Shown here in pieces: positions 21,355 to 36,890 of a DNA stretch of 36,890 bases. The position numbers and the translations under genes were made by a program. Below the pieces are notes generated by a model, which did not search any database, was not told the origin of the DNA, and saw nothing but the letters and a program-made list of their open reading frames with translations. The DNA comes from a candidate division TM6 bacterium GW2011_GWF2_32_72 (GTDB lineage: Bacteria; Babelota; Babeliae; Babelales; GWF2-32-72). Positions within the stretch are counted from its first letter, which is position 1, and each line of letters starts with the position of its first letter. The DNA is taken from assembly GCA_000989525.1 (NCBI GenBank), contig LBON01000007.1, positions 1 through 36,890 of the forward strand, read 5' to 3'.

Positions 21355-21358
21355 ATGA
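21260..21358 (+). CDS. Possible 32-residue leader peptide
   Basis: A GTG-started frame of 32 codons, preceded by AAAGGAG about ten bases upstream, whose TGA overlaps the ATG of the following 1357-residue gene as ATGA. The peptide would be basic (it ends NPFKKRKSV). The overlap and site suggest translational coupling, but a frame this short can occur by chance and the sequence is low in complexity. Confidence 0.3.
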   Translation: MSILNIHLKKIKNFTTEVGSISLNPFKKRKSV

Positions 21359-24300
21359 TGAGACGATTGCTAAAATTCTCCATCGCTATTGTATTAATGT
21401 TTTCGGGCTCCGTAGTCCAGGCTATAAACTGGACTGGTCCCATTGCAGCCGATGTTGTTGATACAGATATAAACGTAACTGGTGATACCACTATTGTAGA
21501 TGGTGTTTCTGTTATGGCTTTAACAACTAACGTTAATGTCAACATCACAGGGGATTATTCAATAAGCGGTACAAGAGAATTATATTTTTATGCCGATAGT
21601 GGTCAAATAATTTATGTTAATGTTGATAATAATCTATCATTTTTTGGTGGAAATGATGGTGTTGTTGATAAAGATTTTCTTATTACTGTTTCTGGTTTAG
21701 GTGATGTTATTTTCATTTTAGCAAATGGTAAAAATGTAAGCATTACAAAAGATACAGAAGGTTCGGCACAGTTTTATGTTCTTTCAAATTCAGATGTATC
21801 TAATTTATCATTTACAAGAGAGAATGGTACTTCTAATTCTGAAGTGATAATTGGTAGTGGTGCTGTTCTTGGCTATATAGCAGAAGATACTTTGCTTGCT
21901 GGCGCAACTGATCAAGGTCGAATTAATTTTGATGTTTCTAATGAAGATGAAGGCCGAACAGTCTTGAGAATTCAAGATAACGGTGCTGTTGTTGTTACAC
22001 CAGCTAAATTGAATGTTGCTTCAAATACCAAATTTGTTTTAACTGATATTACTCAATTAATTCCTGGTAATGGTAATGCTGTTTTGACGGTTTCCAATTC
22101 AGAAGATGAGGCTCCAGGTCTTTTGGTGATTAATGAAAATACGGTTTTAACAGATTTCTGGGCAAATCCATGGGGAACAAATCCTACAGTACCATTCTCT
22201 GGTGTTAGAAAAGGATTTGTTTTAGGTTGTAACGGTATTCTAAATATTGGTAATAATTCATATTTTGACTATGTTGGCACAGTAACAAATGAAAGTCCAT
22301 GGCCAGTAGGAATGCCTGCAAGTTGGTTAGATGGTCAAATGCAAAGTTCTGTTGTTAAAAATAGAAACGCGTCAGCTTTAATTGTTGATGGAAACTATGA
22401 TTATTCAAATGTAACAATTCCTGCAAAAATTATGATGGAAAACACATCAGCATTCTATTTAAGATCCGGTGTGGATAAAGATGGTGTTGTTGTAGAAACT
22501 GTAAATTTGGGTGGAGATATAGTTTCTTCATTCACAATTAATCCAGACAAAATGTCTTCTAACGAAGGTCTTTTGGTAATGGATGTTGAAGGTACATGTT
22601 CAGTGTTTAAGTCTGCTATTGTAGCATTCCCTTCAGATGGTAATGAAGCAATCTTTAAAGTTCTTGGTATGCATGAATATGATAATGGTGGTCCAATTAT
22701 GATTGACTACTTTAATGGCGATAGACTATTCAAGTATAAATCATTCTTGAAAGATGCAGATGAAAATTATTATCAATATAACAAGGCTTATGTTTTAGCA
22801 AACGCAAGAATTGAATTTGAAAATATAGAAATTATCCATGTTGATACGCTTCATACGGTAAAACAAAATAATGATGTTTCTTCTGAACCAACTTATGTTG
22901 GCGGTGAAACATTTAACTTAAAGCAAAATGCAAAACTTATTACAACAGCTAAGCAAATTTCTTCTGCTCGTCCAAAAATAACATTGTTAAATTCTAACGT
23001 CCACTTCAATGAAAGTGCGGCTTTTACAGGTGTAGATCTATTTATTCCAAACTACTTGGCAAGTGCTCAAACAGGTCTTCAATACGATAATGAATCAAGA
23101 ATGATTTTCTACAGCAATGGTAGATTAGTTGATTCTGGTTCTGGTAGAAATGTGATTATGGGTACAGATGTTGGTTCTAGTTCTTCAGATGGAACACTTG
23201 TAAATCGTGATGCACACTTGGATATCTTCCAAGACTGGGCAGAAAGAGGTGTTTCACACACAATTGATCTTTATTTAGATAAGTCTTACAACACAACTTT
23301 TGTAAATGAAAACATAGACACATCTGTTGCAATTAATGGACAAGATTCTGTTGAAACAATTTATATAGGTCATGCAAGTAACGTTTCTATTGGTACAGCT
23401 TATGCAACAGGAACAGATCCGCTGGGTGTATCATTCGCATTAACAGATACAGCTGTTGTAACAATCAATGGCGACTATATGTCATTTGAAACTCGTGGTG
23501 GATCACTTGGTCTTCCTGAGCTTAGTGGTACAACTGGTGAAGGTGGAATATTTGTAGATAGATTAGGTCAATTCATAATTGGTAATATTAGAAGAGCAAA
23601 CGTATCTGCAATGGTAACATTGAGCGCAGATGGTATTGCAACTCTTCCAAAATCAAGAGTTCGTTTTGACAACCGTGTAGGTATTACAGATTGGCAACCA
23701 ACATTAGCAAATGCTGATATTGTGTTGAACGCTGTTGGTGAAAGCCGTGAAGCTTATACATTGGATTGGGAAGCTGTAGTAAAAGATTACTCAGGTACAC
23801 CATCCTTTACTCCATATCCGTTGGATGTTTATGCTCCTTACGCAGCACCAGCTGTTGTAGCAGCAAACTTATTCCCTCTTCCTGTATTCAGCGGCATTAT
23901 TGATCAATTACAAATTAAACGAGCAAGACTTGGTGATGAACCTCATATTAAGATAACTGGTGACAAAACATTCATTAGAGAACTTATATTCCTAACTGGT
24001 TTTGATTCAGCAGAAGCTCCTGTTGGCGTAGTTGTTCTTGATGATAATGCAAGATTGGGTCTTGGTTCTGCAGATAGAACAGTAGATTCAAGTGAAGCGA
24101 ATGTTATGCTTGGTGTAAATGGTGTAACTTTAATTCCAAACAGCGAAGCTGTTGTTGAATTGAATGATGATATCCTTGTAAACAATATGTGTCATATTCT
24201 AAGAGGTACAGCATTTGGTATTAATCAAGAAGTAGATCACTTAATCTTTACATCTCAATCTTCAAAAGAATTGAGAATTAAAGGCACTGGTACTTTAGAT

Positions 24301-25428
24301 TTGACTCAGTTTACAAATGAATATCAAAGAGTTCGTTTTGCGGGCAATGTCAAATTGGTATTGGAACCAGGTGCAGAGCTTTATCTTGGTGGTGGTATGA
24401 TTGAGTTTACTGATAATGCTCAATTAGTATTCAGTAGATTCGTTGATTCAGAAAGACCCGCTGGTACATCTGTTACTGATTATGATGATATTCGTGTAAA
24501 ACTAATTGGTTCAGGTATTTTTGAATTCTCTGAATATGCGGCATTATTTGTAGAAGATGATTCATTTGTTGGTATTGAATCCAATATTTATTCTGAAGGT
24601 GTAACAACATTTACATGGAATTTCTTGGATAGTTCATCATTCAAAATTGGTGATATGGCAAGACCAGGTGGTGCGTTACAAATTGGTAACACAACAGATG
24701 ATGGATCAGTTTCATTTGAATTAAATATTAATGGTATTGGCGCAGAGTTTGAACTTAACCGTCTAGGTTTCTTTGGAACGGGCGTTGGTGTTGTTGATAA
24801 ACGTTCATTGATTCCTAATGAATGGGCTTTTGGTGCTCTTTATGGCGTAGACAAAGTAACAATTAATATTCCAAATGGTAAGTTCCTACATAACCAGATT
24901 ATAAATAGCGCAGATTCTAGAGCAAGCTTGTGGGCACTTGGACCTGTAACTGAGTACACTTGGTCAAATGATTCTGTAAATTCTATTGTTCGTGGTGGTG
25001 GTAACATAGCATTATTAGATGCAACAAAGACAAATACCCATGTGATTGTAGATGTAGTAGCTACAGATACAATTGGTTTAATGTCTTCCTCAATTATGTT
25101 AGCTGATTACAATAAAGATGATTATAGACCTGCCACAAATTTAGTTCCTGCAGATTTCTTTAGGTTCTTGCGAATGGACACATATGACACCTTGGGTAGT
25201 AAATATTGTCCTATATCACAAACAGCATTGGGTACATTTAATATTGTTTATATAGATGGAACTCAAATTTTCAGAAGACCGGTATACCGTGTAATTGGTG
25301 ATGGTGGTAATTATACTTCCCCACAAAGATCTCAATATATTGGTGCACTTGGCTTTGAGTTGGGCTACGAAACAGAAGATCAGCTCGAAAGAGATTTAAC
25401 TTCTGTTATGCAATATATAAATAGCTAG
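21355..25428 (+). CDS. Giant secreted solenoid-like surface protein
   Basis: A 1357-residue exported protein, family not recognised. Signal peptide MMRRLLKFSIAIVLMFSGSVVQA. The mature part is built of short beta-strand-like stretches rich in Val, Thr, Asn, Asp and Gly with very few Cys. It looks like an irregular beta-helix or beta-solenoid of the kind used by adhesins and large autotransporter passengers. There is no C-terminal barrel; it ends in a mostly charged tail (YETEDQLERDLTSVMQYINS), so it is not a classical autotransporter. AAAAGGAAGAG precedes the ATG. A perfect GC-rich hairpin follows the stop, then the barrel gene at 25502. The barrel could anchor or export it, but no evidence beyond adjacency supports this. 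Confidence 0.82.
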   Translation: MMRRLLKFSIAIVLMFSGSVVQAINWTGPIAADVVDTDINVTGDTTIVDGVSVMALTTNVNVNITGDYSISGTRELYFYADSGQIIYVNVDNNLSFFGGNDGVVDKDFLITVSGLGDVIFILANGKNVSITKDTEGSAQFYVLSNSDVSNLSFTRENGTSNSEVIIGSGAVLGYIAEDTLLAGATDQGRINFDVSNEDEGRTVLRIQDNGAVVVTPAKLNVASNTKFVLTDITQLIPGNGNAVLTVSNSEDEAPGLLVINENTVLTDFWANPWGTNPTVPFSGVRKGFVLGCNGILNIGNNSYFDYVGTVTNESPWPVGMPASWLDGQMQSSVVKNRNASALIVDGNYDYSNVTIPAKIMMENTSAFYLRSGVDKDGVVVETVNLGGDIVSSFTINPDKMSSNEGLLVMDVEGTCSVFKSAIVAFPSDGNEAIFKVLGMHEYDNGGPIMIDYFNGDRLFKYKSFLKDADENYYQYNKAYVLANARIEFENIEIIHVDTLHTVKQNNDVSSEPTYVGGETFNLKQNAKLITTAKQISSARPKITLLNSNVHFNESAAFTGVDLFIPNYLASAQTGLQYDNESRMIFYSNGRLVDSGSGRNVIMGTDVGSSSSDGTLVNRDAHLDIFQDWAERGVSHTIDLYLDKSYNTTFVNENIDTSVAINGQDSVETIYIGHASNVSIGTAYATGTDPLGVSFALTDTAVVTINGDYMSFETRGGSLGLPELSGTTGEGGIFVDRLGQFIIGNIRRANVSAMVTLSADGIATLPKSRVRFDNRVGITDWQPTLANADIVLNAVGESREAYTLDWEAVVKDYSGTPSFTPYPLDVYAPYAAPAVVAANLFPLPVFSGIIDQLQIKRARLGDEPHIKITGDKTFIRELIFLTGFDSAEAPVGVVVLDDNARLGLGSADRTVDSSEANVMLGVNGVTLIPNSEAVVELNDDILVNNMCHILRGTAFGINQEVDHLIFTSQSSKELRIKGTGTLDLTQFTNEYQRVRFAGNVKLVLEPGAELYLGGGMIEFTDNAQLVFSRFVDSERPAGTSVTDYDDIRVKLIGSGIFEFSEYAALFVEDDSFVGIESNIYSEGVTTFTWNFLDSSSFKIGDMARPGGALQIGNTTDDGSVSFELNINGIGAEFELNRLGFFGTGVGVVDKRSLIPNEWAFGALYGVDKVTINIPNGKFLHNQIINSADSRASLWALGPVTEYTWSNDSVNSIVRGGGNIALLDATKTNTHVIVDVVATDTIGLMSSSIMLADYNKDDYRPATNLVPADFFRFLRMDTYDTLGSKYCPISQTALGTFNIVYIDGTQIFRRPVYRVIGDGGNYTSPQRSQYIGALGFELGYETEDQLERDLTSVMQYINS

Positions 25429-25501: not shown

Positions 25502-27418
25502 ATGAAAAGATTATTTTTAAGGTCGGCAGCAATTGCAATGTTGTTCGGTGTTACCGGCAAGATAGCAGCTGAAATTACAAGAACTCCAATTAGTTTGGAG
25601 CGTGGTTATATGCACTGCCCAATAGTTGACAAAGACGAAGGTGCAGGCTGGATGTTTAACATTTGGGCTGGCGGATATTTAAAACAAGCGGATCGTGCAT
25701 TTATAAAATCTGGAACAAAAAAATCATCATTGGGTACATTGTGGTTTGGTGAACCAAGTTTTACTATTTCACAAATATTTGCAAATGAAGATGTTTCTGC
25801 CGCAGAAAATCCAATATTATCTCTTCAAAAATTTGAACCTAAATTTGATTATAATGAAGAAGGTGTAATTGCTGGGTTGAATTTTGATGTTCAGTTTGGT
25901 TCAGAAGATAAATGGCACATGGGTTATAGAACCAACTTGCCATTCAAGCGTATTAAAGTTGAAAGAAAATCAGATTTTGATGCAGACAAATCAGCGCAAG
26001 ATGTTTTGGATGATTTTATTATAAAAAAAACAGAACAATTACCTATTTGGCAAAAAGTTGATGATGCATGGACAAAGGAAGGGCAAAGAGAAGAAACATT
26101 GAATTCTTATGCTTATAATTTAAATTTACTTTCACAATTATATTCTTCACCAGGTAATAAATTGGTTAAATTTGCTGATGTTACAACAAGTGATCATATA
26201 ACTATCGCAGGTAAGGATTTGACTGGCAATATTGCTGCTGCTGGTAATATTGTTAATATAAGACCTGGTGTTGCAGCTCTTCCTGGTACAGTATCAAGTT
26301 TGGATTCTGTTGATGTTCAGCTTATCGATAGCAACTTGATTAATGTTACTGATACTATCAGCACGGATGTTGCACCAATTGGTGATGCTAACACATCTAT
26401 TAAAGTTGCTGTTCCTACAGATGGAAGTATTGAATCAAGGGCAATGTTTGTAGCAGATAATAATTATACTAATTTAGGCAATGATAGTTCTGCGTTAGAG
26501 AATCTATGGATTGTTCCTCAAACATATTGGGAAGTAGTTAATGAAGGCAGCCCTGAAGATCCTTTGCTGGTTGCTTATCCACGAGAAACGGCTGATTCTG
26601 TTTCTATCAGAAATACTGTAGAAAATCTTGTTGGACAATTAAGTTCTTCAGCATCAGATTTCTTAAAATCAAAAAATGTTTCATGGGATGATCAAGTTGC
26701 AACAGGTTTGGGTGATTGGTTACATGAACTTTATATTTCTTACGATTTCACTAACTGGTGGACATCAGAATTAATTGGTGGAATTAAAATACCAACCGGT
26801 GAAATTAAGAAAAAAGAAGATGTTTTAAAATTGTTGATGCCTATTTTGGGTAACAATGGTCACGTAGAATTACATTTGGCAATTGAAAATAGATTTGCTC
26901 CGCTTGCTTGGTTGAGATTCAAAGGATTTAACCAACTTTCATGGGCTCTAGAAGCAACAGAAAACAGAGCTGCAGCATTTGCAAATACTTGCAATTTCTG
27001 TGGTACTCAACCTTCTTCTTGTACATTGCCTAACATTAATTGTTTCAGAGTAAAAAACATCGGACCTTCTGTTGAAGCAAGAAATCATTGGTGGACATAT
27101 ACTGGCCGCTGGGATTTAACTGTTGTTCATCCTTACAATCACAAAGTTGGCTTTGACCTAGGTTATGAATTTTATTACAAAGGTCATGACAGAATTCGTT
27201 ACAAAGATTCATGTGTTTGTGACTGGTTGAATAATGTAAATACATTAGATCATAAGGTTCTAGAATGTGGAACAAAAGAATATTCACATAAAATTCGTGC
27301 AGAATTGTTTGGCATTGGTGACTATTACCAAATTTTTGCTGGTATGACACAAGTTCTTGGTGGTAAAAATGCCCCTGCAGAAACAGATTTCCACGTTGGT
27401 GCAAATATTGTGTTCTAA
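25502..27418 (+). CDS. Outer-membrane beta-barrel protein, distant relative of the 3195/5062 pair
   Basis: A 638-residue exported protein. Signal peptide MKRLFLRSAAIAMLFGVTGKIAA. The C-terminus ends GANIVF with terminal Phe, and the last ~250 residues alternate aromatic and polar residues as barrel strands do. GNNGHVELHLAIENRF near 450 parallels GNNGHFGLGID in the 3195 and 5062 products, suggesting one barrel superfamily. The region ~220-350 is Val/Ala/Asp/Thr-rich and may be a large extracellular insertion. A Cys-rich stretch (CNFCGTQPSSC near 500, then CVCDW) is unusual. CCAAGGAGAG precedes the ATG. It lies between the giant secreted protein and the fibre gene, probably in one transcript. 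Confidence 0.8.
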   Translation: MKRLFLRSAAIAMLFGVTGKIAAEITRTPISLERGYMHCPIVDKDEGAGWMFNIWAGGYLKQADRAFIKSGTKKSSLGTLWFGEPSFTISQIFANEDVSAAENPILSLQKFEPKFDYNEEGVIAGLNFDVQFGSEDKWHMGYRTNLPFKRIKVERKSDFDADKSAQDVLDDFIIKKTEQLPIWQKVDDAWTKEGQREETLNSYAYNLNLLSQLYSSPGNKLVKFADVTTSDHITIAGKDLTGNIAAAGNIVNIRPGVAALPGTVSSLDSVDVQLIDSNLINVTDTISTDVAPIGDANTSIKVAVPTDGSIESRAMFVADNNYTNLGNDSSALENLWIVPQTYWEVVNEGSPEDPLLVAYPRETADSVSIRNTVENLVGQLSSSASDFLKSKNVSWDDQVATGLGDWLHELYISYDFTNWWTSELIGGIKIPTGEIKKKEDVLKLLMPILGNNGHVELHLAIENRFAPLAWLRFKGFNQLSWALEATENRAAAFANTCNFCGTQPSSCTLPNINCFRVKNIGPSVEARNHWWTYTGRWDLTVVHPYNHKVGFDLGYEFYYKGHDRIRYKDSCVCDWLNNVNTLDHKVLECGTKEYSHKIRAELFGIGDYYQIFAGMTQVLGGKNAPAETDFHVGANIVF

Positions 27419-27454: not shown

Positions 27455-28834
27455 ATGAAAAGAATAGTTAAATTTTTGAGTTTAGCAGCCTTAGTAGGCT
27501 GCTCCCTCTTGGCGCAGGACAGAGCTCCGCGTGAAGATACGCCATCAGCTACAGCTAATGACGCAGTTGTAAGTCCAATCATTGATGTTGCATTGATAAT
27601 GAATGATCTTGCAAATATTAAGGGTCAAATTGGTAACGTAAATCAAGATGTTTCCGCGGACACAGTTCTTGGTGTTCTAGGTGATGCAAATACAATCTTA
27701 ACAGGTTCTTCAATTTCTGAAGCTTTGTCAGAATTGAAAGATACAACAACTGAAGGTTTTGCTGATTTAAAACAGACTGTGACAAATGGTTTTGCTGATT
27801 TAACAGCGACGGTAACTGATTGTTGTGCAGATTTAAAACAGACTGTGACAAATGGTTTTGCTGATTTGACAGTGACGGTAACAGATGGTTTTGCAGATTT
27901 GAAAGTGACATTGACAGATATCTTAGGTCAGGTTTCAGATCCAGCCTCAGATGATACAGTTCTTGGTGTTCTAGGTGATGCAGATACAATTCTTTCAGGT
28001 TCATCTATTTCTGCAGCCATTAAAGAATTAATAGTTTCTGGAACTTGGTCTGATGGCACACCTATAACTGCAGCAATGACAATTTCAGTTCCAGGATTAT
28101 ATTTTGTAGCAAACGACTTTACTGGCGATGTTGCAATTGCTTCTGATAACGTGACAATCGAAGGTCATGGCAGAACAATTACAGGTACTATTTCAGCTAC
28201 AGGATACGATCATATTTGCATTCATGAATTGAGAGTTCAGAATCCTGGTTCTGTTTGCTTAGATTTTAATACATGTTTAGATATTTGTTTAAAACATATA
28301 TTTGCAACTGATGGAACAATAGGCTTTAATTTTGACACTTGTTATACAATAAAAATGGAAGACTGTAAGGCTGCAGATAGCACAACTTATGGATTGTCTT
28401 TTGATACATGTGCCGACATAGTTATTGATCAATTAAGGTCTGAATATTGTACAGCTAATGATGGTCTCTATGCTGTCGATGTACAAAATATTGTTGTTGC
28501 ATATTCTCAATTTTATGGAAATACACTGAATGGAATGACCTTAGATGCTACAAGTTCAGCAGTGCTTTTAAATTGTGGATTTACTAATAACGTAGTTACA
28601 GGACTAAGTCTTATTAATACAACAACAGCAACACTAGTTCAAGATTGTAAATTTGTCGCCAATACAAACGGCGTTGTTAATACTAACCCTACAGGCGTTA
28701 TATTCTTGAATAACGTTGCAACTGGAAATTTAACAGCTGATTATACAGGTGTTGTAAGTGCAACTGTTGTTCATGCAGGAAGTTTAGGTACAGCAGGTAC
28801 TTACGACAATATTTATACTGGTGTAACCATCTAA
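27455..28834 (+). CDS. Modular fibre protein: DTVLGVLGDAD modules, 11-residue coiled-coil stalk, beta-helix
   Basis: A 459-residue exported protein. The N-terminus MKRIVKFLSLAALVGC has a lipobox-like LVGC at 13-16, so it may be a lipoprotein; a signal-peptidase I site after LLA is the alternative. Domain order: DLANIKGQIGNV with a first DTVLGVLGDAN module (~69-90); then five consecutive 11-residue units of the type GFADLKQTVTN / GFADLTVTVTD (~100-157), which fit a hendecad coiled coil; then a second DTVLGVLGDAD module (~168-190). A right-handed beta-helix with Cys-containing rungs (FDTCADIVIDQL) runs from ~215 to the end. The first module and N-terminal region match the gene at 34512; the beta-helix resembles the genes at 28898 and 30657. 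Likely a surface fibre; function unknown. Confidence 0.82.
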   Translation: MKRIVKFLSLAALVGCSLLAQDRAPREDTPSATANDAVVSPIIDVALIMNDLANIKGQIGNVNQDVSADTVLGVLGDANTILTGSSISEALSELKDTTTEGFADLKQTVTNGFADLTATVTDCCADLKQTVTNGFADLTVTVTDGFADLKVTLTDILGQVSDPASDDTVLGVLGDADTILSGSSISAAIKELIVSGTWSDGTPITAAMTISVPGLYFVANDFTGDVAIASDNVTIEGHGRTITGTISATGYDHICIHELRVQNPGSVCLDFNTCLDICLKHIFATDGTIGFNFDTCYTIKMEDCKAADSTTYGLSFDTCADIVIDQLRSEYCTANDGLYAVDVQNIVVAYSQFYGNTLNGMTLDATSSAVLLNCGFTNNVVTGLSLINTTTATLVQDCKFVANTNGVVNTNPTGVIFLNNVATGNLTADYTGVVSATVVHAGSLGTAGTYDNIYTGVTI

Positions 28835-28897: not shown

Positions 28898-30376
28898 ATG
28901 AAAAGAATTTTAGGTTTATTTTTTCTTTGTTCAATGGTTTTTGTTGTTTCGGCAAAAACTCCAAAAGCAAAGAAAAGCTTTTCAGGGCCTACTCGTGTAG
29001 ACTTGACTAATTTAGAAAATACTTTTGAAAAAGTTGATGGTATACCATTGACTTTAGTAACTGGCGCAAATGCAATTAGTAGCTCTGGCGTTTATTATAT
29101 TGATGATTCGAAAGCTGATGCTGATATTACGATTTCAGCTGATAATGTTGTTTTAGATTTGCGCGGCCGATTAGTACAAAGCATTACTGTGGCTGGTAAT
29201 TTTGTAAAGGTGCTAAATGGAAGTGTTGCCTACGCTTCTAATACGGCTATTTCTGCGACTGGATTCCATGATATAGTTTTTGAAAATTTATTTGTTGAAA
29301 ATAGTGGTGGTACAGGAACAACCTATGCTGTTACTTTTTCTATGTGTAGTAATGTTGTATATTCCAATGCTAATATGTATGGCGATGCCGCACAACTTTT
29401 ATTTGATACTTGCAAATCTATTGATGTAAGAGATCTTCAAATTCTTGGTTCAGGGGCTGGATCTTTTGATTATTGTGCGTCAATGTCTTTGTGTTCAAAT
29501 ATTAGTTGTAGAAATATTTCTATATCAAATCAGGCGCCTACTTATTCACCGTTGTATACTTTTAGTTCTAAAAATTTTGTAATGGAAGATATTATCATTT
29601 CTCAGTGTAGCAATGGGGCAAATATAGGGTCGATAGATTTATTTAGTTGCTCCGGTGGTGCTATGCATAATTGTTCTGTTGAGCCTACTACAAATGGATA
29701 CGGCGTAAGGTTATATAATTGTTTAGCTACATCGTTAGATAGTTGTTCTGTTATTGGTGCCGCTCAGAGTGGCTTTACTTTTGCTGGCGATACATCTTCT
29801 GTATTAGTAACAAATTGTTTGGCAGCAAGAAATAGTTTAATGGGTTTTGCTATTTCTGTGAATGGAACAGTAGACTTATATAATTGTATATCATCAAATA
29901 ATACTCTTGATGGAATTAGAATTGATGGTGGCAGTAAAATATCTATAGATAATTGTTCTTGTATTGATAATGCTGGGAACGGGATAACTATGGAAGATAG
30001 CCTTGTTTTAGATTGTACAGTTGAAAACAGTTTAGTAACAGGTAATAGTGGGCATGGTATTTTAGTTCAAGATAATGGTGGTGGTATTCCTAAGCAAGGA
30101 GCCATAATTAATAATTATGTTGCTTCAAATACGGGTGAGGGTATTTACTTAAGGTCCGCGGGGATTTTTAGATTTACAGTCGCTGATAATAAATGTATCG
30201 GAAATACAGTTGGAGTTGAGCAAGATGCCGGATCTACTGGTAGTAATGCTATTTTTAATAATGTTGCATTGGCAAATTCTGTAAATAATTATGTAAATGT
30301 GTCCGGAACAAATATTTGTACATTAGCTAATCTTAATGCTGGCACCCAAACTGCTTGGATGAATATACAAAATTGA
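28898..30376 (+). CDS. Secreted right-handed beta-helix protein, paralogue 1
   Basis: A 492-residue protein with signal peptide MKRILGLFFLCSMVFVVSA. After a short linker (PTRVDLTNLENTFEKVDGIP) the rest is a parallel beta-helix of NosD/pectate-lyase type. Repeated rungs of 20-25 residues carry stacked Asn, Cys and Ser (DLYNCISSNNTLDGIRIDGG; SIDNCSCIDNAGNGITMED). No catalytic Asp/Arg set is recognisable, so a structural or glycan-binding role is more likely than lyase activity. The N-terminal rungs align with those of the 27455 product, and nearly all of it aligns with the 30657 product, most strongly in the last ~190 residues. It ends at a strong terminator. Confidence 0.85.
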   Translation: MKRILGLFFLCSMVFVVSAKTPKAKKSFSGPTRVDLTNLENTFEKVDGIPLTLVTGANAISSSGVYYIDDSKADADITISADNVVLDLRGRLVQSITVAGNFVKVLNGSVAYASNTAISATGFHDIVFENLFVENSGGTGTTYAVTFSMCSNVVYSNANMYGDAAQLLFDTCKSIDVRDLQILGSGAGSFDYCASMSLCSNISCRNISISNQAPTYSPLYTFSSKNFVMEDIIISQCSNGANIGSIDLFSCSGGAMHNCSVEPTTNGYGVRLYNCLATSLDSCSVIGAAQSGFTFAGDTSSVLVTNCLAARNSLMGFAISVNGTVDLYNCISSNNTLDGIRIDGGSKISIDNCSCIDNAGNGITMEDSLVLDCTVENSLVTGNSGHGILVQDNGGGIPKQGAIINNYVASNTGEGIYLRSAGIFRFTVADNKCIGNTVGVEQDAGSTGSNAIFNNVALANSVNNYVNVSGTNICTLANLNAGTQTAWMNIQN

Positions 30377-30656: not shown

Positions 30657-32135
30657 ATGAAAAAAAATTGGGGTTGGTTTGTTATTTGTTCAATGACACT
30701 TGTTGAAGCAAGGATTCCGTTGAATCAGAGTAAATTTTTGGAACCTACCCGTGTTAACTTGAATCGATTGGAAGATACCTTTGAAAAGGCTGATGGTATA
30801 CCATTAACTTTAGCAAGTGGTACAAACACAATTAGTAGTTCTGGCGTTTATTATATTGATAATTCGAAAAGTGATGCTGATATTACGATTTCATCTGATA
30901 ATGTGGTTTTAAATTTACGTGGTCGGCTGGTGCAAAGTATCAATGTGGCAGGTAGTTATGTAAAAGTACAAAATGGAAATGTTGCTTATTCTGCTAACAC
31001 GGCTGTTTCTGCAACTGGTGTTCATGATATATTTTTTGAAGATTTGATTGTTGAAAATAGTGGTAGTACTGGCACAACATACGCAGTTACTTTTTCTATG
31101 TGTAAAAATGTTGGATATTCTAATATTAATATGTATGGGGATGGAGCTCAGCTTTTATTTGATGTTTGCACGATTGTTGATGTAAGTGATCTTAAAATTC
31201 TTGGAACAAATGGGGGAACACCAACTTATGGGATAAGGATGAATTCCTGTCCAAATATTAGTTGTAGAAATGTTTCAATTGCAAATTATAAGGCTACCAC
31301 ATCAACTTTTTATGTGTATGGTGCAAGTAATTTTGTAATGGAAAATGTTTTAACAACCAGCTGTAGCGCTTCTGGATCGACTGGTGTTTTGGAGCTTTCA
31401 ACATGTTCTGGTGGTAGTGTAAAGGGTTGTTCTATTAAAGGTAGTGCTTCTGGTGGTCATGGAATTCTTGTTAATAATTGTTTGGCAACTACATTTGATA
31501 ATTGTTCTGCTGTTAACGCTAATTTGTCTGGATTTTATTTGACAGGTAATACATCATCTATATTAGTAACAAATTGTTTGGCAGCAAGTAATGGTTCTAA
31601 TGGTTTTGCTATTACTGTGAATGGAACTGTAGATTTATATAATTGCATTTCAACAAATAATACTAGTGACGGGATAATAATTGATGGAGGAAGTAGAATA
31701 TCTATAGATAATTGTTCCTGCGTTGATAATAACGGGAACGGGATAACTATGGAAGATAGTCTTGTTTTAGATTGTACAATTGAAAACAGTTCAGTAACAG
31801 GTAATGGTGGGCATGGTATTTTAGTTCAAGATAATGGTGGTGGTGTTCCTAAGCAAGGAGCCATAATTAATAATTATGTTGCTTCAAATACGAGTGAAGG
31901 TATTTACTTAAGATCCACGGGGATTTTTAGATTTACTGTTGCAAGTAATAAATGTATAGGAAATTCAGTTGGAATTGAGCAACCTTCCGGATCTACTGCT
32001 AGTAATGCTGTTTTTAATAATGTTGCATTGGCAAATACTTCAGCTAATTATGTAAATGTGTCTGCAGGCAATAGGGGTACATTAGCTTCTCTTAATACTG
32101 GCACCCAAACTGCTTGGGCAAATATAACAAATTGA
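30657..32135 (+). CDS. Secreted right-handed beta-helix protein, paralogue 2
   Basis: A 492-residue paralogue of the 28898 product, exactly equal in length. Signal peptide is MKKNWGWFVICSMTLVEA. Same linker (PTRVNLNRLEDTFEKADGIP) and the same stacked-Asn/Cys beta-helix rungs. The C-terminal ~190 residues are close to identical (SLVLDC, HGILVQDNGGG, PKQGAIINNYVASN), while the middle rungs (~185-300) differ clearly. Unlike paralogue 1 it has its own upstream region, carrying the element shared with the gene at 34512, so it is probably separately transcribed. A ribosome site is present as ACAGGAAACTGGT before the ATG. No catalytic motif is seen. Confidence 0.85.
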   Translation: MKKNWGWFVICSMTLVEARIPLNQSKFLEPTRVNLNRLEDTFEKADGIPLTLASGTNTISSSGVYYIDNSKSDADITISSDNVVLNLRGRLVQSINVAGSYVKVQNGNVAYSANTAVSATGVHDIFFEDLIVENSGSTGTTYAVTFSMCKNVGYSNINMYGDGAQLLFDVCTIVDVSDLKILGTNGGTPTYGIRMNSCPNISCRNVSIANYKATTSTFYVYGASNFVMENVLTTSCSASGSTGVLELSTCSGGSVKGCSIKGSASGGHGILVNNCLATTFDNCSAVNANLSGFYLTGNTSSILVTNCLAASNGSNGFAITVNGTVDLYNCISTNNTSDGIIIDGGSRISIDNCSCVDNNGNGITMEDSLVLDCTIENSSVTGNGGHGILVQDNGGGVPKQGAIINNYVASNTSEGIYLRSTGIFRFTVASNKCIGNSVGIEQPSGSTASNAVFNNVALANTSANYVNVSAGNRGTLASLNTGTQTAWANITN

Positions 32136-34266: not shown

Positions 34267-34295
34267 AGCTGGGCAAAAAAAGCCCAGCTTTTTTT
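34267..34295 (+). terminator. Rho-independent terminator of metG
   Basis: AGCTGGGC (34267-34274) / GCCCAGCT (34282-34289), 7-base A loop, followed by a T run. Confidence 0.93.
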
Positions 34296-34511: not shown

Positions 34512-35801
34512 ATGAAAAAATTAAATTTATCGTGTTTTTTGTTGTTAATATCAACATTTGTTTTTCCATATAGTTCAAATATTCCAAAAAAATCTGTCCG
34601 AGACCGTGATGGAAGAGCAAATGATTTTGTTGTTATTCCCAATAATGGTTGCAGTATTGCAATAAGTGATCTTTCTAATATAAAAAGTTTAATTGGTAAT
34701 GTAAGTCAACCTGCATCGGCAGATACAGTTTTAGGTGTTCTTGGAGATGCAGATTCAATTTTAGGTAAATCCATATCGCAAGCAATCAATGATATTTCAG
34801 GAAGTGGCGATGTGTTAGCAAAATTGGGTGATGTAAATCAACCCGCTTCAGATGATACAGTTTTAGGTGTACTTGGTGATGCAGATGTTGCTTTAACTGG
34901 TTCATCAATATCTGAAGCCCTTAGAGTTGTTCAATTAACACTGGAGGGTCAGGGAACGGCTGCAATATTAAATGTACTTGGTGATGTTTCACAGGCTGCT
35001 TCAGACGATACTGTGTTAGGAGTTCTTGGAGATGCAGATTCAATTTTAGGTAAATCCATATCGCAAGCAATTGGAGATATTGCTGGTAGTGGTGATGTTT
35101 TGGCTGTGCTTGGATCTGTGACACAATCGGCATCAGATGATACAGTTTTAGGTGTACTTGGTGATGCGGATGTTGCATTAACGGGTTCATCAATTTCGCA
35201 AGCGCTTAGAGTTGTTCAATTAACACTGGAAGGTCAGGGAACGGCTGCAATATTAAATGTACTTGGTGATGTTTCACAGGCCGCTTCAGATGATACAGTT
35301 CTTGGTGTGCTTGGCGATGCAGATGTTGCATTAACAGGTTCATCAATTTCCACAGCGTTAGCAGCATTGAAGACGACATTAACAGATGGAGATCAAGAGA
35401 TTAAAGATATCTTGGGAACAGTTGCACAAACAGCTTCAGACGATACAGTTTTGGGAGTTTTGGGCGATGCAGATGTTGCTTTAACGGGCTCATCAATTTC
35501 GCAAGCACTTAGAGTTGTTCAATTAACACTGGAAGGTCAGGGAACGGCTGCAATATTAAGTGTACTTGGTGATGTTTCACAGGCAGCTTCAGATGATACA
35601 GTTCTTGGCGTGTTGGGTGATGCAGATGTTGCCTTAACAGGTTCATCAATTTCCACAGCGTTAGCAGCTTTGAAGACGACATTAACAGATGGAGATCAAG
35701 AGATTAAAGATATCTTGGGAACAGTTGCCCAAGCAGCATCAGACGATACAGTTCTTGGCGTGTTGGGATGCATTGAACACAGTAAAAACAGATGTAAATA
35801 A
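34512..35801 (+). CDS. DTVLGVLGDAD module-repeat surface protein, N-terminal part (frame broken)
   Basis: 429 residues up to a TAA that follows a repeat contraction. Signal peptide MKKLNLSCFLLLISTFVFPYS. Then SDLSNIKSLIGNV, homologous to the same region of the 27455 product, and seven complete modules plus a broken eighth. All modules begin (S/A)xDTVLGVLGDAD. They come in types: about 51 residues with SEALRVVQLTLEGQGTAAIL; 44 residues with LGKSISQAI; and 50 residues with STALAALKTTLTDGDQEIKDIL. The module order here is 44-51-44-51-50-51-50. AGGTGAT precedes the ATG. At 35767-35772 the sequence jumps from the start of one module into the middle of another, losing 35 bases net relative to intact copies, and terminates at 35801. 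The coherent reading continues in the next frame. Confidence 0.8.
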   Translation: MKKLNLSCFLLLISTFVFPYSSNIPKKSVRDRDGRANDFVVIPNNGCSIAISDLSNIKSLIGNVSQPASADTVLGVLGDADSILGKSISQAINDISGSGDVLAKLGDVNQPASDDTVLGVLGDADVALTGSSISEALRVVQLTLEGQGTAAILNVLGDVSQAASDDTVLGVLGDADSILGKSISQAIGDIAGSGDVLAVLGSVTQSASDDTVLGVLGDADVALTGSSISQALRVVQLTLEGQGTAAILNVLGDVSQAASDDTVLGVLGDADVALTGSSISTALAALKTTLTDGDQEIKDILGTVAQTASDDTVLGVLGDADVALTGSSISQALRVVQLTLEGQGTAAILSVLGDVSQAASDDTVLGVLGDADVALTGSSISTALAALKTTLTDGDQEIKDILGTVAQAASDDTVLGVLGCIEHSKNRCK

Positions 35802-36588
35802 AATAGGTGCGGTAACAGATTTGCCAGGAGCAGATACAGTTCTGGGTGTTTTGGGTGATGCAGATGTTGCCTTAACAGGTTCATCAATTTCCACAGCGTT
35901 AGCAGCTTTGAAGACGACATTAACAGACGGAGATCAAGATATTAAAAATATTCTTGGAACAGTTGCTCAAACAGCTTCAGACGATACAATTTTGGGAGTT
36001 TTGGGCGATGCAGATGCAGTTCTTGGAAGTTCAATTTCAACTGCATTGAACACAGTAAAAACAGATGTAAATAAAATAGGTGCTGTAACAGATGCACCGT
36101 CAGACGATACAATATTAGGAATACTTGGAGATGCAGATGTTGCCTTGACAGGCTCTTCAATTTCCGAAGCACTTAGAGTTGTTCAATTAACATTGGAAGG
36201 TCAGGGAACGGCTGCAATATTAAGTGTACTTGGTGATGTTTCACAGGCCGCTTCAGATGATACAGTTCTTGGCGTGTTGGGTGATGCAGATGTTGCCTTA
36301 ACAGGTTCATCAATTTCCACAGCGTTAGCAGCATTGAAGACGACATTAACAGATGGAGATCAAGAGATTAAAGATATTCTTAATACAGTTCTTGGTGTTT
36401 TGGGCGATGCAGATGCAGTATTAGGTAGTTCAATATCTAGTGCATTGGTTGATATTAAAAATACAACTACAGAAAACATCGCAGATTTAAAAATGACAGT
36501 TACAGATGGATTTGCAGATTTGAAAGTAACGCTTACAGATATTTTGGGTCAGGTTTCAGATGCAGCTTCAGATAATACATTGCATTAA
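35689..36588 (+). CDS. DTVLGVLGDAD module-repeat protein, middle part in shifted frame
   Basis: An open frame whose module-coherent reading begins at about 35767 (ALNTVKTDVNKIGAVTD); the ATG at 35689 is within the preceding module in another frame and is unlikely to be a real start. It encodes modules of the 50-, 41- and 51-residue types, a shortened one, and one in which the module is followed by the 11-residue stalk motif (IADLKMTVTDGFADLKVTLTD) also present in the 27455 product. It ends at a second out-of-frame contraction near 36579. It is a continuation of the 34512 gene, not a separate gene. Confidence 0.6.
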   Translation: MEIKRLKISWEQLPKQHQTIQFLACWDALNTVKTDVNKIGAVTDLPGADTVLGVLGDADVALTGSSISTALAALKTTLTDGDQDIKNILGTVAQTASDDTILGVLGDADAVLGSSISTALNTVKTDVNKIGAVTDAPSDDTILGILGDADVALTGSSISEALRVVQLTLEGQGTAAILSVLGDVSQAASDDTVLGVLGDADVALTGSSISTALAALKTTLTDGDQEIKDILNTVLGVLGDADAVLGSSISSALVDIKNTTTENIADLKMTVTDGFADLKVTLTDILGQVSDAASDNTLH

Positions 36589-36890
36589 CAGGTTCATCAA
36601 TATCCGAAGCACTTCGAGTTGTTCAATTAACAATAGATGAAGATTATGCAGATTTAAAAATGACAGTTACTGACGGTTTTGCAGATTTGAAAGTAACGTT
36701 GACGGATATTTTGGGCCAAGTTTCAGATGCAGCCTCAGATGATACAATATTAGGAATACTTGGTGATGCAGATGTTGCCTTAACAGGTTCATCAATATCC
36801 GAAGCACTTCGAGTTGTTCAATTAACAATAGATGAAGATTATGCAGATTTAAAAATGACAGTTACAGATGGATTTGCAGATTTGAAAGTA
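36579..36890 (+). CDS. DTVLGVLGDAD module-repeat protein, third part, truncated by the window end
   Basis: After the second scar the reading returns to the frame used by the 34512 part (the two net losses of 35 and 28 bases sum to 63, or 21 codons). It reads IALTGSSISEALRVVQLTID, then two rounds of stalk sequence (YADLKMTVTDGFADLKVTLTD) separated by a DTILGILGDAD module, and is open to base 36890. By analogy with the 27455 product, a beta-helix may follow outside the window. Confidence 0.6.
   Translation, partial: MALTGSSISEALRVVQLTIDEDYADLKMTVTDGFADLKVTLTDILGQVSDAASDDTILGILGDADVALTGSSISEALRVVQLTIDEDYADLKMTVTDGFADLKV

Follow-up and report, generated by a model that had tools for sequence, protein, structure and literature searches.

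The question raised by this locus is what kind of protein is encoded by a long array of related modules that runs off the end of an assembled contig. The source bacterium is a tiny protist parasite of the phylum Dependentiae (Babeliales), a group in which many exported proteins belong to no recognised family. Its genome comprises 987 kb in 10 contigs, and the window, that is, the whole stretch of DNA analysed here, is one entire contig of 36890 bases. The closest relatives of its metG (51–64% identity) are found in Dependentiae/TM6/Babeliales genomes.

The array gene and its modules

The module array spans positions 34677 to 36890, where its right end is also the end of the contig. The following features mark the beginning of the gene.

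34267..34289, + strand: intrinsic terminator after metG, which sets the array gene apart from the gene upstream
34512..34578, + strand: probable Sec signal peptide MKKLNLSCFLLLISTFVFPYSS, with a basic n-region and a hydrophobic core
34512..35801, + strand: array gene, first open block, with a signal-like N-terminus, seven intact modules and then a premature stop
34677..35768, + strand: modules A1 B1 A2 B2 C1 B3 C2 and one truncated core, in frame 0

The terminator, an 8-pair stem with six GC pairs followed by a T run, was the one found against 0.1 expected. As read from the sequence, the ATG at 34512 has a good ribosome-binding site (AAAGGTG) upstream. The signal peptide was likewise called by reading the sequence, without a signal-peptide predictor, and the signal-like N-terminus at 34512 agrees with the earlier note on this DNA, which had placed a signal peptide before the modules.

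The array contains 13 intact and two broken DTVLGVLGDAD cores, which bears out the previous count of about 15 related modules in tandem, and two more intact cores are found in a second gene that starts at 27455. A module length of 41–51 residues had also been proposed. This holds for types A (44 aa), B (51), C (50) and D (41), but not for types E and F (~62 each) or for the first module of gene 27455, which has 98 residues. All are built around a conserved joint of ~22 residues, S-D-D-T-V-L-G-V-L-G-D-A-D-x-x-L-x-G-S-S-I-S. Tandem Repeats Finder scores of up to ~1100, together with profile E-values down to 2.4e-28, rule out a chance origin of the array. The joint is evidently held by selection at the protein level, more than by fresh duplication of DNA, because the 10-codon core TVLGVLGDAD occurs in 14 different DNA versions among 15 copies that encode nearly one peptide (pN/pS ~0.15 over the 15 copies). 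For whole modules, pN/pS lies between 0.00 and 0.14, including pairs on either side of junction 1 (below). That the module array and its purifying selection are real is near certain. A nucleotide pattern for the core gave zero matches genome-wide at up to three mismatches because the synonymous sites of the core vary too much.

Breaks in the reading frame

The region 34512–36890 had been taken for a single open protein. Instead, the frame is broken near 35770 and again near 36579, and the rest of the array consists of the following parts, in which missing bases were counted against intact copies.

35766..35776, + strand: junction 1, ~35 core bases missing; frame 0 changes to +1
35773..36588, + strand: second open block, in frame +1, with modules C3 D1 B4 C4 E1 and the start of F1
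36376..36384, + strand: junction 2, near 36381; ~27 bases missing, in frame
36573..36584, + strand: junction 3, ~28 core bases missing; frame back to 0
36579..36890, + strand: third open block, in frame 0, with the remainder of F1 and with F2, which the contig end truncates

As assembled, the array gene encodes a product of 429 residues that ends at a frame 0 stop at 35799–35801. The break at junction 1 is either recent or an assembly error, because both purifying selection and the open second block continue past it. Assembly trouble is plausible because the last 48 bases of the contig recur at 36481 and exact repeats within the array reach 86 bases; on the other hand, the junctions share only a few bases at the join, which speaks against an artefact. 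The frame breaks are either assembly errors in the repeat that ends the contig or the outcome of recent slippage that leaves a truncated product.

If the breaks are real, the array gene could be a recent pseudogene or a silent store of modules, with 27455 alone yielding a working protein. Two out-of-frame junctions and one in-frame junction with such short overlaps would suit decay, unlike the collapse over long k-mers that short reads produce. Against decay, the second block has no stop over 271 codons, against 27 and 15 stops in its other two frames, the low pN/pS across junction 1 implies that any decay is very recent, and the ending of the contig in the same repeat keeps an assembly error plausible, so that we consider this explanation rather unlikely. 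Alternatively, slippage or recombination might drop the out-of-frame pieces in some cells and so switch the distal head or the length of a phase-variable stalk. The long exact repeats would favour such switching, as would the fact that the two frame shifts (~−35 and ~−28) cancel and both fall inside cores, but recombination at homologous positions of whole modules would preserve the frame, and phase variation appears very improbable.

The earlier note had also pointed to the sequence beyond the right edge, but the contig itself stops there, inside the array. The missing 3′ part of the array gene is absent from every other contig end of the genome, and none of the contig ends carries a 5′-open beta-helix frame.

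Breaks of this kind recur in the assembly. Ankyrin-repeat arrays run off two contig ends, at the start of contig C4 (L234) and the end of contig C5 (L249), which indicates that breaks at repeat genes are common in it. Another large coiled-coil array, made of TDTGLLSTSTISLQNQLDQVMTDTTNLQDQIDLFTTSTINLQNQIDAVA units between two beta-rich domains, was observed at the start of contig C6 (L236) and the end of contig C2 (L246), apparently in one gene that bridges the gap from one contig to the other.

A paralogue with a beta-helix head

The second gene with modules lies upstream of the array gene.

27455..28834, + strand: paralogue, with a signal-like N-terminus, a module, a hendecad coiled coil, a module and a C-terminal right-handed beta-helix
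27680..27910, + strand: hendecad coiled coil of the paralogue (TVTDGFADLKQ units), seen in its periodicity and in a 33-base tandem repeat

The beta-helix matches the Beta_helix model with an E-value of 1.5e-10 (41.3 bits against a cut-off of 25.9); the domain is absent from the assembled part of 34512, the contig ending inside the array. By blastp, the two genes match with an E-value of 5e-23 and have the N-terminal region and the modules in common. A common origin is clear. Modules of the two genes had been called identical, and at the protein level this stands for the core and a tail of 19–22 residues, but at the DNA level they differ. The common tail DLKVTLTDILGQVSD is the same protein in both, while its DNA differs at 8 of 57 sites between the genes and at 6 within the array. 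The two cores of 27455 are closest to each other (31/33). The idea that modules are exchanged between the genes is therefore unsupported as far as recent exchange is concerned. A separate observation is that the signal region of the paralogue at 27455–27502, MKRIVKFLSLAALVGCSLLAQ, includes LVGC, a sequence compatible with a lipobox; 27455 could be a lipoprotein.

Known families and periodicity of the tails

The earlier note did not recognise the module as a named domain, and the searches concur: no single stretch passes the limit in Pfam, NCBIfam, PHROGs or PDB, where only weak summed scores were obtained. The Pfam families UPF0114, DAHP_snth_FXD and Pheromone passed the whole-protein cut-off through summed weak repeats with 0 significant stretches, and were rejected. 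A literature search found no description of the module.

Four kinds of known protein resemble parts of this system. Trimeric autotransporter adhesins (YadA, UspA1, AtaA) are secreted and combine a beta-rich head with a coiled-coil stalk that is rich in repeats and has exchangeable segments, but the order is reversed in the paralogue, whose head is C-terminal. Identity with them fails at the anchor, since YadA_anchor (PF03895) was found in 0 of 101 Dependentiae genomes with a positive E. coli control, the 3′ end of the array gene being missing. In phage LGAPAGASVSADIAAVKADT spacer proteins, an LG...GxSxS motif is followed by a probable coiled coil before variable domains; as a relative of the module, the phage LGAPAGASVSADI spacer was rejected (hhalign probability 3%, 16 columns aligned). 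Right-handed beta-helix proteins (PF13229 Beta_helix / NosD) resemble the head of 27455 and its neighbours at 28898 and 30657, but their models cover no part of the module and none matches in the assembled array gene. Hendecad coiled-coil proteins have the same 4-3-4 hydrophobic spacing, here over up to 74 residues, but the DTVLGVLGDAD joint, which is no coiled-coil repeat itself, interrupts the hendecads. The module is accordingly filed as new and lineage-restricted, and the protein as of an already known kind, an exported coiled-coil stalk with swappable heads.

Hendecads have a period of 11/3. In the 74-residue tail of the paralogue, the hydrophobic period is 3.68, with a power of 126 against 0.5 at 3.5, and 0 of 500 shuffles were as good. 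Most tails have a period of 3.4–3.7: 3.60 in type C (3/500 shuffles as good), 3.66 in type E (12/500) and 3.38 in type A (0/500). The signal is weak in type B, with a best period of 3.24 (44/500), and in type F (35/500), and amphipathic periodicity is absent from the core (445/500). This pattern suggests that coiled-coil segments alternate with a non-helical or capped joint. Structure prediction, which the earlier note had proposed, gave monomer AlphaFold models with pLDDT 34 and 39 that are uninformative, so that the fold is read from periodicity.

Distribution of the module

To follow the distribution, Dependentiae genomes were searched with a single module and with a profile, the latter against 101 of them. 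The profile HMM, a check already proposed for this module, showed it to be rare: it is clear in 2 of the 101 genomes, the source genome and G003, and marginal in a third, G017. The G003 match (E 1.2e-8) was obtained with a query without any G003 sequence, and this genome belongs to a different family of the same order. The G017 match (E 4.6e-5) came from a profile without any G017 sequence. A profile including both added only one weak match (E 0.0068) among the Dependentiae genomes. Neither the module profile against wider collections of genome and viral contigs, which gave no confirmed relative, nor tblastn against phages and plasmids, which gave nothing significant, extended this distribution.

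In G003, a frame of 698 residues after prfB contains three modules, two of them clear and one weaker, and ends in a C-terminal domain of another kind, phrog_8198 (E 3.1e-37). Cyanophages and various other phages encode relatives of phrog_8198 next to genes for the neck, portal, terminase and tailspike. At this locus (L053), the end domain of the exported protein is common to proteins of cyanophage structural regions at ~30–35% identity. The G017 gene also follows prfB and is cut off by a contig end. The order of a signal-like N-terminus, module(s) or coiled coil and a C-terminal domain is therefore found in two families of Dependentiae.

A probable coiled-coil stalk and its surroundings

The neighbourhood of the array gene is related to the envelope, with a BamA-like Omp85 at 12323, a putative outer-membrane protein at 25502 and three beta-helix genes. 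The putative outer-membrane protein (25502–27418) has no Pfam match. Other Dependentiae (L152, L153, L160, L161) encode homologues of it upstream of metG, which points to a conserved neighbourhood. Beside 27455 lie two adjacent genes (28898–30376 and 30657–32135) for exported beta-helix proteins that are paralogues of each other, both of 492 aa. Between the operon of a solute-binding ABC transporter and the gene for the outer-membrane protein, 21355–25428 encodes a further protein, of 1357 aa, without a significant Pfam or NCBIfam match.

By a modest preference, the array gene probably encodes a stalk that belongs to an exported, fibrous protein and is made from a coiled-coil kit. This is the best reading because the tails have coiled-coil periodicity and because 27455 combines a signal-like N-terminus, modules and a beta-helix in that order. 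An extended fibre built from a kit of parts, as first proposed, is retained as an extended stalk, but not as a single long gene. In each module, the conserved joint would lead into a coiled-coil segment whose length and periodicity vary. Through these segments several chains would wind around one another, and the joint would cap one segment and start the next. A binding head would terminate the chain and would be the right-handed beta-helix in 27455; the 3′ end of 34512 is missing. The part order, the periodicity, the low pN/pS, the envelope-related neighbourhood and the second coiled-coil array count for the stalk, and the weak B and F tails, the aperiodic core, the broken frame and the fact that no outer-membrane anchor is recognised count against it.

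The stalk protein may be an oligomer, may be located at the surface and may have a binding role; that it acts as a surface adhesin is a matter of inference only. Modules could instead form an exported spacer in a periplasmic scaffold or a secreted host-directed protein. The missing anchor would agree with such a role, as would the Chromulinavorax proteome, 44% of which carries signal sequences, these being enriched among host-directed enzymes and proteins without a known function (PMC6561590). The envelope genes and the beta-helix head favour a cell-bound fibre but are also compatible with a spacer, and a location away from the cell surface seems unlikely. A bolder version of the stalk, in which an interchangeable spacer specific to Dependentiae presents beta-helix or phage-derived heads to protist hosts and slippage switches the distal head, is decidedly doubtful.

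Because repeat genes lie at contig ends (the module array, the second coiled-coil array and the ankyrin arrays), such proteins are probably under-counted in Dependentiae. To our knowledge, little has been established about how these bacteria attach to their protist hosts and enter them, and the conserved module, with its coiled-coil signature and exchangeable heads, provides a concrete candidate for their host-facing surface.
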